This document shows, piece after piece, positions 15,941-21,306 of a stretch of 21,505 nt of DNA (positions are counted from its first letter, which is position 1; each line of letters opens with the position of its first letter). A model generated the notes under the pieces. That model was not told the DNA's origin and searched no databases. It worked only from the letters and a program-made list of their open reading frames with translations. The position numbers and the translations under genes are program-made. The stretch comes from a virus. The stretch lies in the IMG/VR virus record IMGVR_UViG_3300006100_000096, positions 1 through 21,505 of that record; one strand, written 5' to 3'.

Positions 15941-16186
15941 TTATAATCCTACATTGTAAAGTTTAAAAGAGAACTTCTCTTGAGTATATATCTTAATTCT
16001 TTCCAAGAAATGATTCAAAGTAAAATTCTTATGTGATTTATATTCAAGGTTGTCTATAATATCATAGAGAATTGCTTCATCTTTTGATTCGTGTAGACGA
16101 AGCATTCTACCAATAGACTGAAGAACTTTAATCTTAGATTTAGACGGAGAAGCAGCAATCATATGGTGTAATTTCTTAATGTTCAC
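15941..16186 (-). CDS. uvsW: UvsW helicase, C-terminal fragment
   Basis: 81 codons from a GTG, giving V/M-NIKKLHHMIAASPSKSK, then IKVLQSIGRMLRLHESKDEA, the superfamily 2 motif VI, and IKIYTQEKFSFKL at the end. It matches the C-terminus of T4 UvsW (VKNLHHVVLAHGVKSKIIVLQTIGR...). The open frame continues upstream to 16207 and includes motif V core residues GTTSTG before the GTG, then meets a TGA. So it cannot be read through from UvsW-N in the genomic sequence. No ribosome site lies at normal distance from the GTG; a GGAGGT at 16240-16245 lies beyond a hairpin. Sequence conservation suggests it is still under selection, or was broken recently. Confidence 0.88.
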   Translation of the reverse strand: MNIKKLHHMIAASPSKSKIKVLQSIGRMLRLHESKDEAILYDIIDNLEYKSHKNFTLNHFLERIKIYTQEKFSFKLYNVGL

Positions 16187-16213
16187 ACCGGTTGAGGTTG
16201 TACCCAGTCAAAA

Positions 16214-16237
16214 GTGACCCGATAAGAATCGAGTCAC
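16214..16237 (-). promoter_or_regulatory. 10-bp hairpin between the HNH gene and UvsW-C
   Basis: In minus-strand RNA, GUGACUCGAU pairs with AUCGGGUCAC around a UCUU loop, one pair being U-G (a C/A mismatch on the other strand). UUUU follows. It lies between a GGAGGT (16240-16245) and the UvsW-C frame. It may be a weak terminator, a ribosome-positioning hairpin, or part of a residual self-splicing RNA. Confidence 0.7.
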
Positions 16238-16254
16238 ATACCTCCATTTCTACC

Positions 16255-17358
16255 TTAGTTGGTTTCATCTTTAATCCTTTTCTTACAATTATCAAAATGC
16301 CACCTATGCATTGGAGAAATGTTCCCTATAACATCGCAGTGTGGGCACTTTACTTTTTTTGGCGAAGATTTTTCTTTAGGTGGTTTACTTGGTTTCTTTC
16401 GACCTCGTACCCAATTTTCTCTTGGAGCATCTACAGATTTTATTTCATCTACTCCATTGTTCCACCAAACCTTTCTTGTCTTTTTTCTTTTTTCTAATCT
16501 TTCTGCCTTTTTAATAGGATCTGCCCAAATTTTAAGTTGTATATTTCCCATATTTTTTCTTCTATTTTGTTCTCTTTCGGAATTAGATTTACCGATTTCT
16601 AGGTTTTTGAGATATTCTTCATCTTGCCATTTTGCTTTTATTTTTTTACCGGCATCTTCTCTTTTATTCATATCTCTATTAACAATAGTCATATTATCTC
16701 TGAATTTTTCTCTTTCTTCTTCAGGCATATTATCCCATCTATATTGCATTCTTTCACAAAAGAATTCATAATATTCGGGATCATTATATCTATCTATAAC
16801 CTTTTGAATCATATAATTTCTATAATCTTCATCTTGCCATTGTAATTTCATTTGATTAGATAAAATTTCTGCAGAACCTTCCTTAGCATGTCTGGTTAAC
16901 GACATTTGTTTGCAATGATCTCTAATCAAATCCTGTTCTTCGTCTGTCATTGAGTTCCACCTATCAATTTTCTTTTTTGAAATGTTGTCTCCAAAAAGTT
17001 TCTTGGCTTCATCAGATAATTCTTTCCACCATCTTTTTTGTGCTGTAGAAAGAAGATTTCGAGTGATGTCATCAGATGGAACCATATTATTTAATGGTCT
17101 AGTAAATGGTTTTATGGTATACGCCATTGCCAATAATTTATGGGCTTCTATGTGAGAAGCATACGGCAATCTAACTATATTAAAAGTTTCATTAATATAG
17201 TTAGGAAACATACTTCTTGGTAATATATGGTGGTTTTCACAATATATTTCATTTATTTCTTCAGTCTTATTAGATATACAATAATCTATATATTCAATTA
17301 ACTTGTCTAAAGAATCTGGGGTTCCCAACACACTATAAAAAATTTCAATAAAATCCAT
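16255..17358 (-). CDS. HNH homing endonuclease inserted in uvsW
   Basis: A 367-aa DNA endonuclease. The HNH core is near the N-terminus: YCENHHILPRSMFPN (His43, His44), then NIVRLPYASHIEAHKLLAMAY (Asn60, His69, His73). The middle consists of repeated short helical units around Trp-Asp (LQWQDEDYRN, RWDNMPEEERE, AKWQDEEYLK, IWADPIKKAE), resembling NUMOD-type DNA-binding repeats. VWWNNGVDEIKSVDAPRENW is another recurrent phage HNH-nuclease module. The C-terminus is a zinc finger (Cys338, Cys341, His354, Cys358; CPHC...RWHFDNC). It lies inside the broken uvsW gene, downstream of two late-promoter boxes, with no strong ribosome site. It probably cleaves uvsW of related phages lacking the insert. 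Confidence 0.9.
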   Translation of the reverse strand: MDFIEIFYSVLGTPDSLDKLIEYIDYCISNKTEEINEIYCENHHILPRSMFPNYINETFNIVRLPYASHIEAHKLLAMAYTIKPFTRPLNNMVPSDDITRNLLSTAQKRWWKELSDEAKKLFGDNISKKKIDRWNSMTDEEQDLIRDHCKQMSLTRHAKEGSAEILSNQMKLQWQDEDYRNYMIQKVIDRYNDPEYYEFFCERMQYRWDNMPEEEREKFRDNMTIVNRDMNKREDAGKKIKAKWQDEEYLKNLEIGKSNSEREQNRRKNMGNIQLKIWADPIKKAERLEKRKKTRKVWWNNGVDEIKSVDAPRENWVRGRKKPSKPPKEKSSPKKVKCPHCDVIGNISPMHRWHFDNCKKRIKDETN

Positions 17359-17385: not shown

Positions 17386-17401
17386 TATTTATATATTTAT
17401 A
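17386..17401 (-). promoter_or_regulatory. Tandem late promoter boxes (2 x TATAAATA) ahead of the HNH gene
   Basis: On the minus strand TATAAATA occurs twice head to tail with no spacer (17394-17401 and 17386-17393). Initiation would fall about 20 nt before the HNH start. It overlaps the stop codon of UvsW-N. Late control of phage homing endonucleases is a known T4 theme. Confidence 0.6.
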
Positions 17402-18738
17402 TTTTCACATATCCATATATCTGAAATATCGTCGTCACATGTAATATTTTCTACTAATTTAACAGAACCATCAGATAATAATACCTTTGTTCCTGACGGG
17501 AATGTTTTACTCACATCATTGAAATGTAAAGTTATATTATAATGTATATCTTCAATAGCATGACGAATCTTTTCTCTATCAGATCCTTTTACATCACCAT
17601 CAACATAGAATACATTATGCTTTGTATCACTACTTATAGCATCATAAAGATCCTTACCATGTTCTTTCATTCTGAAGAATACTAGTTTATTGCCTTTAAG
17701 TGACAGAGTTAGATTTTTAATAAAGTTGGTTCTTGGTTGATATGATGTGATGAAATCTATTTCTTCTTGATAAGTCTTTTTCCTATATTTTTTTGTAATA
17801 GGATCGTATATACCTTTTGAATATTCCTTACAAATTTCATCTGGATATTTCAGAACTATGCATTTGATTTTGAGTTTAGTTACATCTCCACGATTCATTA
17901 ATTCTTTGGTGGTTGTTGTTTTATACTTAGCTCCAAACAATCCTTCAATTGTGGCTTCATTTAATGGATGCCCATCTAAAGTTCCGGTCATGCCAAATCT
18001 ATATTTGGTATTTTTCATATTACCAAGAATTTTTATGAGACTGGTTGCTTTAAAAGTGTGGACTTCATCTCCAATAACTAAATCAAACTGATCATACCAT
18101 TCGGCAGACATTCCTCGTTTGCCATGCTCAAGCGATTGCCAAGTTGATATTGATAAATCTGCTGGAATATTATTATCTTTAGAAATTCCATCTAATGATG
18201 TATGAATAACGCCTTTATATCCATAAGATTCAAAATCAGATTTCAACTGAGACACCAGATTTATTGTTGGTACAATAATTAAAGTCTTGTTTTTATACCA
18301 TTGAGTAATAATATATGCAATAAGACTTTTTCCGCTTGAAGTCGGACTAACTAGAGTTCTTCTATTACTTCTGAGACATTTAATAACAGCATCGATCTGA
18401 TAATCTCTAGGCTCAAATGGAAGTTTTAGTGTCTTGATAAAATCAAGAACTTCATGTTCGGAAACATTCTCATATAGAAACTCATCATCAAAGGAAAACG
18501 AATACTCTCGTTCATCACAGAATTTTTTTATTCTTTGTGCCAGACCTTTATATACTAGCCTATTCATTCTTCCTACAAGTGATATATTTCCGTCCCACAA
18601 ACGCGCTTTAAATTTTGGATGAAACTTGTAGTTTTCTGCTTTGAATGTTAGATAATCAGACAACTCCATCAAGAGGCCAGCTTCGCATTCTACTCTGGCA
18701 TGAACTTCATTAAAATGTTTAAGGTGAATATCACTCAT
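17389..18738 (-). CDS. uvsW: UvsW helicase, N-terminal part with a 53-aa foreign tail
   Basis: 449 aa. Residues 1-396 are UvsW: KAENYKFHPKFKARLWDGNI (T4 EADGYRFNPRFRYGNWDGRI), Walker A SPTSSGKSLIAY (131-142), DEVH box (224-227), motif III GMTGTLDG, KTYQEEIDFIT, and VFYVDGDVKGSDREKIRHAIE. Residues 397-449 have no UvsW counterpart; within them TFPSGTKVLLSDGSVKLVEN resembles intein N-terminal block A with Thr where Cys1 is expected. Motifs V and VI are missing here and lie partly in the 15941-16207 fragment. UvsW unwinds recombination intermediates and R-loops to switch replication modes. The start overlaps the uvsY stop (ATGA). Confidence 0.93.
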   Translation of the reverse strand: MSDIHLKHFNEVHARVECEAGLLMELSDYLTFKAENYKFHPKFKARLWDGNISLVGRMNRLVYKGLAQRIKKFCDEREYSFSFDDEFLYENVSEHEVLDFIKTLKLPFEPRDYQIDAVIKCLRSNRRTLVSPTSSGKSLIAYIITQWYKNKTLIIVPTINLVSQLKSDFESYGYKGVIHTSLDGISKDNNIPADLSISTWQSLEHGKRGMSAEWYDQFDLVIGDEVHTFKATSLIKILGNMKNTKYRFGMTGTLDGHPLNEATIEGLFGAKYKTTTTKELMNRGDVTKLKIKCIVLKYPDEICKEYSKGIYDPITKKYRKKTYQEEIDFITSYQPRTNFIKNLTLSLKGNKLVFFRMKEHGKDLYDAISSDTKHNVFYVDGDVKGSDREKIRHAIEDIHYNITLHFNDVSKTFPSGTKVLLSDGSVKLVENITCDDDISDIWICENINI

Positions 18739-19843: not shown

Positions 19844-21271
19844 ATGAATTATAAAGAATTATTTATGGTAAACGGTAAGATCCCTGCGAAGAGAACTTCT
19901 GAAAAATATCTTATTAAGCATAATTTGCTTGATGTGGTGGTGAACTATGGATATGGGTTTAACACAGAAGTTCACAATTTATCATTCAAAATTCAATGTA
20001 TGGTTGTTGGTATAACAGAAGCACCAACTTGTGAAGTATGTGGTGAATATACGTTTAGAAATAAAGATGTTGCTGGTATTGAATTTAGGCGGTTTTGTTC
20101 CATAGGATGTTCTACTAAAGTTAGATCTGACGATCATTATTCTAAAAGGGATGCGATTGCTGCCAATGAAATGCGCAAACAAACTATGCTTGACAAATAT
20201 GGATATGAATATAATTCTCAAAGACCAGAAATAAAGAAAATTTTATCTATCACAAGAACGAATTATCATTTAAGTGTTGATACACAAGAAAAACTTACAG
20301 ATAAGAAATGGATGTATAATGAGTATATTATCAACAATAGAACTGCAGTAGATATTGCAGACGAATTGGGGGTATATTATGGTACAGTAATATCATATTG
20401 TAAATCTCATGGATTTAAGATAAAACAAACATCAAATTATTCATTATATGAGGTTGAACTGTCTAGATTTCTAACTGATTTGGGTGTTTATCATGAACGC
20501 AATGATAAAATTCTAGGTAGAAAAGAAGTTGACATTCATATTCCATCTAAGAATATTTGTATAGAAATTGATGGCCTTTATTGGCATTCATATGATATGA
20601 GAGTTTCGGTAAAAGAACGAAAGAAATCATTACAAAAGTCTATAGAATGTGAAGATCAAGGATTACAATTATTGAGGATATTTGAGGACGAATGGATATT
20701 GAAGCGAGATATTTGGAAATCAATTATCAAAGTTAAATTGGGAATTTGTAATAATAAAATTCATGCCCGAAAAACAAATATAATGTCGGTATCTAGTCTA
20801 GAGGCCAAGGAATTTTTGAATAATAATCATCTTCAGGGATTTGTTGCTGGAAAACATTATGGATTATATCATAATGGAGAATTAGCTCAATTGATGACTA
20901 TTGGTAAATCTAGGTTTGAAAAAGATAAGATAGAATTATTGCGTCTCTGCACAATTAAAGATACTGTGGTTGTGGGAGGGTTGACAAAACTACTTAAGTT
21001 CATTAATATAGATCTTGTTTCTTATGCCGATAGAAGATATTCAAATAAAGAAGCATATCATGGGTTTATATTTGAGAAATATACTGATATTGGATATTTT
21101 TGGACTGATAAAAAAATAAGAATTAATCGCTTTAATACACAGAAGAATAAACTATCGAAATTATTAGGTTCTGGGTATGATGAATCTAAAAGCGAGTTTG
21201 ATAATATGATTGACAACAAATATAGAATCATATATGATTGTGGTCAATGTAAGTTTACATATTATTCATAA
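19844..21271 (+). CDS. Vsr-like (EDxHD family) freestanding homing endonuclease
   Basis: A 475-aa protein. An N-terminal zinc-binding module has CEVCGEYT (Cys63, Cys66) and FCSIGC (Cys85, Cys89). A helix-turn-helix-like segment (about 157-192, NNRTAVDIADELGVYYGTVI) follows. The nuclease domain (about 200-290) reads YEVELSRFLTDLGVYHERND, KEVDIHIPSKNICIEIDGLY, WHS and LLRIFEDEW, which is the very-short-patch-repair fold of the EDxHD homing endonucleases (I-Bth0305I type). The C-terminal part (EAKEFLNNNHLQGFVAGKHY, ELLRLCTIKDTVVVGGLTKL) is the acetyltransferase-like accessory domain often attached to these enzymes. It is opposite in strand to its neighbours, between the tail tube-like gene and gp23. 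Confidence 0.88.
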   Translation: MNYKELFMVNGKIPAKRTSEKYLIKHNLLDVVVNYGYGFNTEVHNLSFKIQCMVVGITEAPTCEVCGEYTFRNKDVAGIEFRRFCSIGCSTKVRSDDHYSKRDAIAANEMRKQTMLDKYGYEYNSQRPEIKKILSITRTNYHLSVDTQEKLTDKKWMYNEYIINNRTAVDIADELGVYYGTVISYCKSHGFKIKQTSNYSLYEVELSRFLTDLGVYHERNDKILGRKEVDIHIPSKNICIEIDGLYWHSYDMRVSVKERKKSLQKSIECEDQGLQLLRIFEDEWILKRDIWKSIIKVKLGICNNKIHARKTNIMSVSSLEAKEFLNNNHLQGFVAGKHYGLYHNGELAQLMTIGKSRFEKDKIELLRLCTIKDTVVVGGLTKLLKFINIDLVSYADRRYSNKEAYHGFIFEKYTDIGYFWTDKKIRINRFNTQKNKLSKLLGSGYDESKSEFDNMIDNKYRIIYDCGQCKFTYYS

Positions 21272-21306
21272 AAATAGAGGAGTAAGTTTCCCTACTCCTC
21301 TATTTT
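21271..21306. terminator. Bidirectional terminator between the endonuclease and gp23
   Basis: A 14-bp perfect inverted repeat, AAAATAGAGGAGTA and TACTCCTCTATTTT, with an 8-nt loop. A and T runs on either side let it act for the convergent plus-strand endonuclease gene and minus-strand capsid gene. It begins at the last base of the endonuclease stop. Confidence 0.92.

Follow-up and report, generated by a model that had tools for sequence, protein, structure and literature searches.

In the viral DNA analyzed here, positions 1 to 21,505 of IMG/VR virus record IMGVR_UViG_3300006100_000096 (21,505 nucleotides [nt]; the window), the helicase gene uvsW is split by a homing-endonuclease gene (HEG), and its C-terminal piece, UvsW-C, contains a 7-nt break in its reading frame directly before helicase motif V. 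Breaks of 1 to 11 nt recur at the same site in related viruses, together with a hairpin and a Shine-Dalgarno (SD)-like motif inside the coding sequence. Comparison of these sequences makes it likely that ribosomal bypass or a +1 frameshift, stimulated by the SD-like motif and the hairpin, restores UvsW-C in HEG-split uvsW genes.

A split uvsW gene with a frame break in its C-terminal piece

The minus strand of the window, to which all the features of this locus belong, carries UvsW-N (18738-17389), an HNH homing-endonuclease gene (17358-16255), and UvsW-C. The frame-0 head of UvsW-C, MKPTKVEMEVCDSILIGSL (16212-16268), begins at an ATG (16268-16266) that overlaps the HEG stop codon and is preceded, 6 nt upstream, by an ordinary SD sequence, AAGGA (16275-16279). 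The MKPTK encoded from this ATG is kept in other split uvsW genes, which have homologous MKPxK...AIIVASY heads, and a start of UvsW-C at a CTG further downstream (16207-16205), one of the options in a preliminary description of the locus, is contradicted by these features. The rest of UvsW-C, GTTSTGVNIKKLHHM...YNVGL* (15941-16204), is in the +1 frame relative to the head and matches the helicase family phrog_9690 (E = 1.8e-28).

In intact relatives, the uninterrupted order is ...VEDEENAI(I/L)(V/I)ASLGTTSTGV.... The window has VCDSILIGS and GTTSTGVNIKK in different frames, and TCA and ACA are separated by 13 nt, 7 nt over the 6 nt found in relatives (AS-L-GTT); the preliminary description was correct on both counts. 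The coding gap is TTGACTG (16205-16211). It follows a CTT leucine codon (16212-16214), the last head codon to match the native (A/G)S-L and the proposed take-off codon, and its last 3 nt, CTG (CTA in the related locus L004), form the proposed landing codon. Abutting the take-off codon is a 10-bp hairpin, GTGACTCGAT-TCTT-ATCGGGTCAC (16214-16237), with the loop TCTT and one G-U pair; the chance expectation of such a hairpin (at least five G/C per arm) is 0.1 per strand of the window. GGAGGT (16245-16240) lies directly 5′ of the hairpin, and its GGAGG (16241-16245) is an anti-SD match inside the head. When the hairpin is removed, GGAGGT is 8 nt from the CTG, so the geometry noted at the outset also stands.

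Sequencing error was ruled out, as the same junction is present in independent contigs. The identical break was found in IMG/VR contigs of several metagenomes (3300006116, 3300006127, and 3300025375) and in L004, whose flanking uvsW has only ~78% protein identity to that of the window. HEG changes aside, the L004 insert is identical to that of the window up to ...CACTTTTGACT and diverges immediately beyond. Identity up to the break and no further is as expected of a cassette that moved recently and has its right edge there.

The break recurs at one site in motif V

Further split uvsW genes were found in IMG/VR, first with a profile of the UvsW-N tail and then with two DNA patterns. Breaks of 4, 6, 7, or 11 nt, or of one extra pyrimidine (UUU_Y), were found in 29 distinct sequence contexts, 28 of which are split uvsW genes. 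The intact genes used for comparison differed between analyses, comprising 125 distinct unsplit contexts for the break, 115 genes for the fold, and 120 contexts for the SD-like motif. None of the 125 unsplit contexts, which were collected by protein similarity, contained the break. The position of the break is constant, at the codons directly before GTF or STG of motif V: frame-0 heads of split uvsW genes read MKPxK...AIIVAS(Y/S/F), often with GTF next, and most then break.

In the gap type, most members break after a tyrosine codon. The gap is 4 nt in L178, L324, and L329 (TAT-TGAC-GGA) and in L334 (TAT-TGAC-GCA), and 6 nt in L176 (TAT-TAGAAC-GGA), L320 and L323 (TAT-TAGTGA-GGN), and L328 (TAT-TAGTGC-GGT). 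L169 has an 11-nt gap (TCG-TGAATGATTCG-GGC). Of the 11 gap contexts, 10, all of them in relatives, have a stop codon immediately after the take-off codon. L332, which was recovered by the second DNA pattern scan, is an unsplit and otherwise complete uvsW. It has neither tail nor HEG, yet a 7-nt gap (TAT-TAGGTGC-GGA), the hairpin, and AGGAGG are present. The break is likewise retained without an HEG in L190/L191 and L320.

In the one-base type, TTT is followed by a single extra C or T. We collected 18 distinct heads of this +1 type, with UUU_C or UUU_U and cognate re-pairing; a slippery P-site codon that allows such re-pairing is not present in the window. An unbiased IMG/VR scan for one extra pyrimidine returned 42 hits, of which 41 were UvsW-C with an MKP-type head and 1 was unrelated.

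Some split genes are in frame. In Dickeya phages (Ackermannviridae), UvsW-N carries a matching tail and is accompanied by an endonuclease-like gene and an in-frame UvsW-C that starts with MKPTK. The gene is split in this way in Vibrio phages D506 and K476 too, again in frame but with no HEG. The UvsW-N tail common to these phages also occurs in Vibrio phage 1.255.O (L161, 1816-3561), in which uvsW is a single open reading frame (ORF) with an insert of roughly 55 amino acids (aa) at the split site; this is perhaps a re-fused split gene. In L194, the cassette and its GIY-YIG HEG are near-identical to those of L192/L197 and UvsW-C is in frame, so that L194 is apparently a natural recombinant and a useful control.

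A hairpin and an SD-like motif accompany the break

Fold energies were calculated as the minimum free energy (MFE) of the 39 nt before the break, and groups were compared by Mann-Whitney tests. Gap members fold at −14.5 to −20.6 kcal/mol (mean, −16.7), and the mean MFE is −10.7 for +1 members and −5.8 for intact genes (gap and +1 members each versus intact genes, p about 2e-8). None of the 115 intact uvsW genes has a fold here as strong as those 5′ of the gaps, that of the window (−14.9 kcal/mol) included. As synonymous controls, we recoded each sequence with the codon usage of its contig, leaving the amino acids unchanged. By this test, 10 of the 11 gap members reached the floor (p = 0.001), L332 gave p = 0.005, and the window fold gave p = 0.0005, again the floor. 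The in-frame split genes of the Dickeya and Vibrio phages were without a hairpin signal (p = 0.65 to 0.79) and without the SD-like motif.

Covariance of the stem in relatives, a check proposed in the preliminary description, was found: in the loop-aligned stems of nine sequences, drawn from gap and +1 members, 100% of positions were paired, two-sided changes occurred at 6 of the 10 pairs, and the covariation score was reached in 0 of 500 shuffles. An excess of G-U over A-C pairs in the stems (11 to 0) is biased by stem choice and was not relied on.

Within the head, 26 of 29 broken contexts have a strong anti-SD match (GGAGG-like), versus 1 of 120 intact contexts (Fisher test, 1e-24). In 10 of the 11 gap loci, folding out the hairpin leaves 9-13 nt between the SD-like motif and the resume codon; the distance is 9-10 nt in those +1 members whose stem is long and perfect. 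The motif, including the GGAGG of the window, is close to the P-site slip codon only when the hairpin is folded.

The head of UvsW-C is under selection

The ORFs after the break are intact in all loci examined, and their nonsynonymous divergence (dN) is low in most pairs. Because homing transfers make post-break dN ambiguous, the heads were used as the test instead. In diverged pairs of +1 cassettes, the heads change almost only synonymously, with 8 of 15 synonymous versus 1 of 48 nonsynonymous sites changed between L296 and L304, and 5.5 of 15 versus 1.5 of 48 between L284 and L302. Gap-type heads show more protein divergence outside the AIIVASY core. A nonfunctional head would be expected to lose its protein sequence, and the strand that it encodes has a use only in connection with the sequence beyond the break. 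Sequence comparison establishes selection on the UvsW-C head, besides the HEG split, the recurrent frame break, the hairpin, and the SD-like motif.

A model for recoding by bypass or +1 frameshift

From these patterns we infer that the ribosome recodes, in what order the events took place, and that the indel gives immunity to the endonuclease. In the proposed model, the HEG cassette that has split uvsW also carries a translational recoding site. Translation of UvsW-C would start at ATG 16268 and continue to CTT (16214-16212), whereupon the ribosome would skip 7 nt, land on CTG (CTA in L004), and resume at GGT ACA (16204), giving a product, ...DSILIGS-L-GTTSTGVN..., equal to the native sequence. 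The movement would be driven by the hairpin re-forming behind the ribosome and by pairing of GGAGG with 16S rRNA. The usual distance between an SD sequence and a start codon is about 8-9 nt; with the hairpin folded out, the distance from GGAGG to the P site at take-off would be too short, and a forward move would relax it to about 8-9 nt. Other lineages would use the same site with a stop codon and a 4- to 11-nt gap or with a single-base +1 slip at UUU_Y, and the 1-, 4-, 6-7-, and 11-base members may be variants of one device. In a 70S system, refolding of a hairpin beside the E site stimulates +1 movement, mimicking an internal SD sequence (PMC6321510).

The origin of the break may lie in the endonuclease. 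Insertion of the cassette would rebuild the conserved motif-V DNA in UvsW-C, a potential target of the resident enzyme, and an indel in motif V would destroy that target and protect UvsW-C. Loss of this target is probably the reason why the indel arose. The bypass sequence of T4 has been suggested to act in this way with respect to MobA (PMC5009743).

Several observations weigh against this reading. L194 and the Dickeya phages have an HEG yet an in-frame UvsW-C; immunity by indel is thus not obligatory, and this part of the model is less certain than the recoding itself. Take-off and landing codons are identical only in L169 (TCG/TCG), roughly alike in the window (CTT/CTG), and mismatched in the tyrosine-type gaps. 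The window is without a stop codon after take-off (CTT TTG), and its SD-like motif, considered by itself, does not differ significantly from synonymous recodings (p = 0.11). The SD-to-resume spacing of 9-13 nt is a purely descriptive range, and the counts of broken contexts include related cassettes, whose lineages are not independent. Homing moves the cassette between diverged hosts, and selection on the post-break part may predate its arrival.

The idea that these sites form a new recoding class is put forward tentatively, at slightly less than even confidence. In such a class, an SD-like motif and a hairpin folding behind the ribosome would act as a spring that moves it 1-11 nt forward with little or no codon match, and the device would have spread in environmental phages as the self-immunity part of uvsW HEG cassettes, sometimes outliving the endonuclease.

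Alternative explanations

The indels could instead be repair scars at the HEG cut site, leaving UvsW-C dead, the hairpin and SD-like motif incidental, and uvsW dispensable enough to tolerate the loss. As expected of a cut site, the cassette DNA of pairs such as window/L004 and L169/L170 stops matching at or close to the break; the L004 HEG has an internal deletion, and one sister, L194, is in frame. However, the frame-0 heads have undergone mainly synonymous changes within the +1 lineages, the SD-like motif and the covarying hairpin recur together with the break, no decay was seen in any post-break ORF, and the break is present without an HEG in L190/L191, L320, and L332. We therefore regard a scar as unlikely. 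Simple decay, one of the options raised at the outset, is possible for this one virus but fits the family poorly, in which heads keep their protein sequence while codons change. Initiation across the hairpin, another of those options, would have the folded hairpin set GGAGG 8-9 nt from CTG 16207-16205 and start a shorter UvsW-C there. The geometry is exact in the window, and the near-constant short distance that the folded hairpin gives between the SD-like motif and the resume codon recurs in relatives. The initiation codon itself is not conserved, since its equivalent elsewhere is AAC, GAC, TGC, TGA, or TCG, whereas the upstream ATG (MKPxK) is; the CTG-started product would miss the strand before motif V that the conserved head encodes, and L332, which is unsplit and so needs no internal start, shows these elements too. 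The proposal is accordingly very improbable.

Removal of the insert at the RNA level is less probable still and can hardly be entertained. Homing endonucleases are often located in introns, and the preliminary description had considered a relic of a self-splicing element. Yet the gap is only 1-11 nt and persists without an HEG, excision of the whole insert would delete the native strand that the head encodes, and scans with the Rfam group I and group II intron models gave no match in the window (E up to 10) or in eight relatives (gathering thresholds). The hairpin of the window is followed by TTTT and had been flagged as terminator-like, but the hairpins of relatives at the same place (CCTATTAG, CTCGTGAATG, and CTTATTGAC) are without a T run, which occurs only in the window, and lie inside the coding head; an intrinsic terminator of the HEG is thus highly improbable. 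An alternative genetic code was rejected: in most of the contigs, TAG and TGA serve as stops of other ORFs, and breaks of 4, 7, or 11 nt or of the +1 type would be out of frame under any code.

Comparison with known systems

The likeness to the T4 mobA/gene 60 bypass proposed in the preliminary description is supported, as relatives share the site, the hairpin, the SD-like motif, and the HEG split. As in T4 gene 39-mobA-gene 60, an HNH homing endonuclease splits a replication/repair gene, and the downstream piece has a short noncoding gap with a frame change near its start (16211-16205 in the window). A stop codon follows take-off in most uvsW relatives (10 of 11 gap contexts, the window excepted), as in gene 60, where a 5′ stem loop is thought to pull the mRNA and an SD-like element lies near the landing site. 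The gene concerned is uvsW, however, and not that of a topoisomerase, and the gap is 1-11 nt versus 50 nt. The T4 stem includes the take-off codon together with some of the gap, whereas the uvsW hairpin is 5′ of the take-off codon and merely touches it, resembling instead the separate 5′ stem loop of gene 60. The codon match is mostly absent in uvsW breaks, and the ~19 codons before the uvsW gap are too few for a nascent-peptide signal of the gene 60 type. Because gap length, stem position, the stop codon of the window, and codon match differ, we consider the uvsW sites a related variant of mobA/gene 60 and not a member.

The +1 frameshift of prfB (SD 3 nt before CUU_UGA) and bacterial UUU_Ynn slippage similarly combine an SD-like stimulator with a P-site slip, but in uvsW the SD-like motif reaches the P site only via the folded hairpin, and gap-type members would move 4-11 nt. 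In Aeh1 nrdA/mobE and in the split gene 43 of phages 25 and 44RR, an HEG also splits an enzyme into two separately started polypeptides, but only the C-terminal piece of uvsW has a conserved frame break with RNA signals. T4 SegE, a GIY-YIG homing endonuclease, targets uvsW (PMC2988022), and L192-type GIY-YIG HEGs match Pfam SegE_GIY-YIG; unlike them, SegE adjoins uvsW without splitting it. The tape-measure gene of Corndog, in which an HNH insertion is accompanied by noncanonical translation (PMC4351075), is a possible further analogue. No paper linking uvsW to programmed frameshifting was found in the literature searched.

What is known of natural ribosome bypassing in phages has come mainly from T4 gene 60. 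The same plan, an endonuclease split and a gap to be skipped, occurs in at least 10 sequence lineages and dozens of environmental viruses, with step sizes of 1-11 nt, naturally varied hairpins, and in-frame sisters as controls. The origin of such sites, protection from homing endonucleases, and ribosome movement by SD pairing and hairpin refolding thereby become testable. If recoding occurs, many environmental uvsW genes are misannotated as broken.

UvsW-N, its tail, and the homing endonucleases

The UvsW-N ORF (17389-18738; 449 aa; Pfam UvsW_N and ResIII) encodes helicase up to ...DREKIRHAIED. Its match ends at residue ~397 (tblastn, about 2,500 phage records), and after IED the native sequence stops and a 52-aa foreign tail closes the ORF. 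This conserved C-terminal tail, IHYNITLHFNDVSKTFPSGTKVLLSDGSVKLVENITCDDDISDIWICENINI (17392-17547), stands in place of the native strand EENAIIVAS. It can be aligned across 12 split or insert-bearing uvsW genes (consensus, V.L.DG..K.A..IT..DD..D.W), and structure prediction gives a small beta domain (block predicted local distance difference test score, ~78-87). The tail resembles Hint/intein block A, with weak similarity to Pfam Hom_end_hint (E = 0.034); its profile gave no match in bacterial and archaeal genome contigs and nothing convincing among PDB sequences. A split intein was rejected, since the first tail residue is not conserved, UvsW-C starts with MKPxK and has no intein C-terminal part, and only the block A-like strand is present. 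In L178 (3323-4123), L325, and L329, an intein-like C-terminal sequence, GDVYNLRIKSEDGLNHNYFANDLNVSN, lies directly before the helicase CHKAKS motif.

The HEG of the window (16255-17358; 367 aa; ENHHILPR motif) matches homing/HNH endonucleases (phrog_655, E = 7e-19; phrog_12434, E = 7e-16) and, by tblastn, phage HNH endonucleases. Within it, at 17174-17201, a 12-nt hairpin loop flanked by inverted repeats is inverted between the window and L004 (AATGAAACTTTT versus AAAAGTTTCATT); the deletion in the L004 HEG is large. HEGs at the uvsW site (L182-L198 and L279-L329) have HNH or GIY-YIG domains and similar C-terminal KEKWKDPEF-type repeats, which suggests that catalytic domains have been swapped on one DNA-binding module. 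Elsewhere in the window, on the plus strand, a second homing endonuclease gene of the Vsr-like/EDxHD type (19844-21268; phrog_3339; Pfam Vsr, E = 5e-4) is followed, directly after its stop codon, by a strong hairpin (21275-21302).
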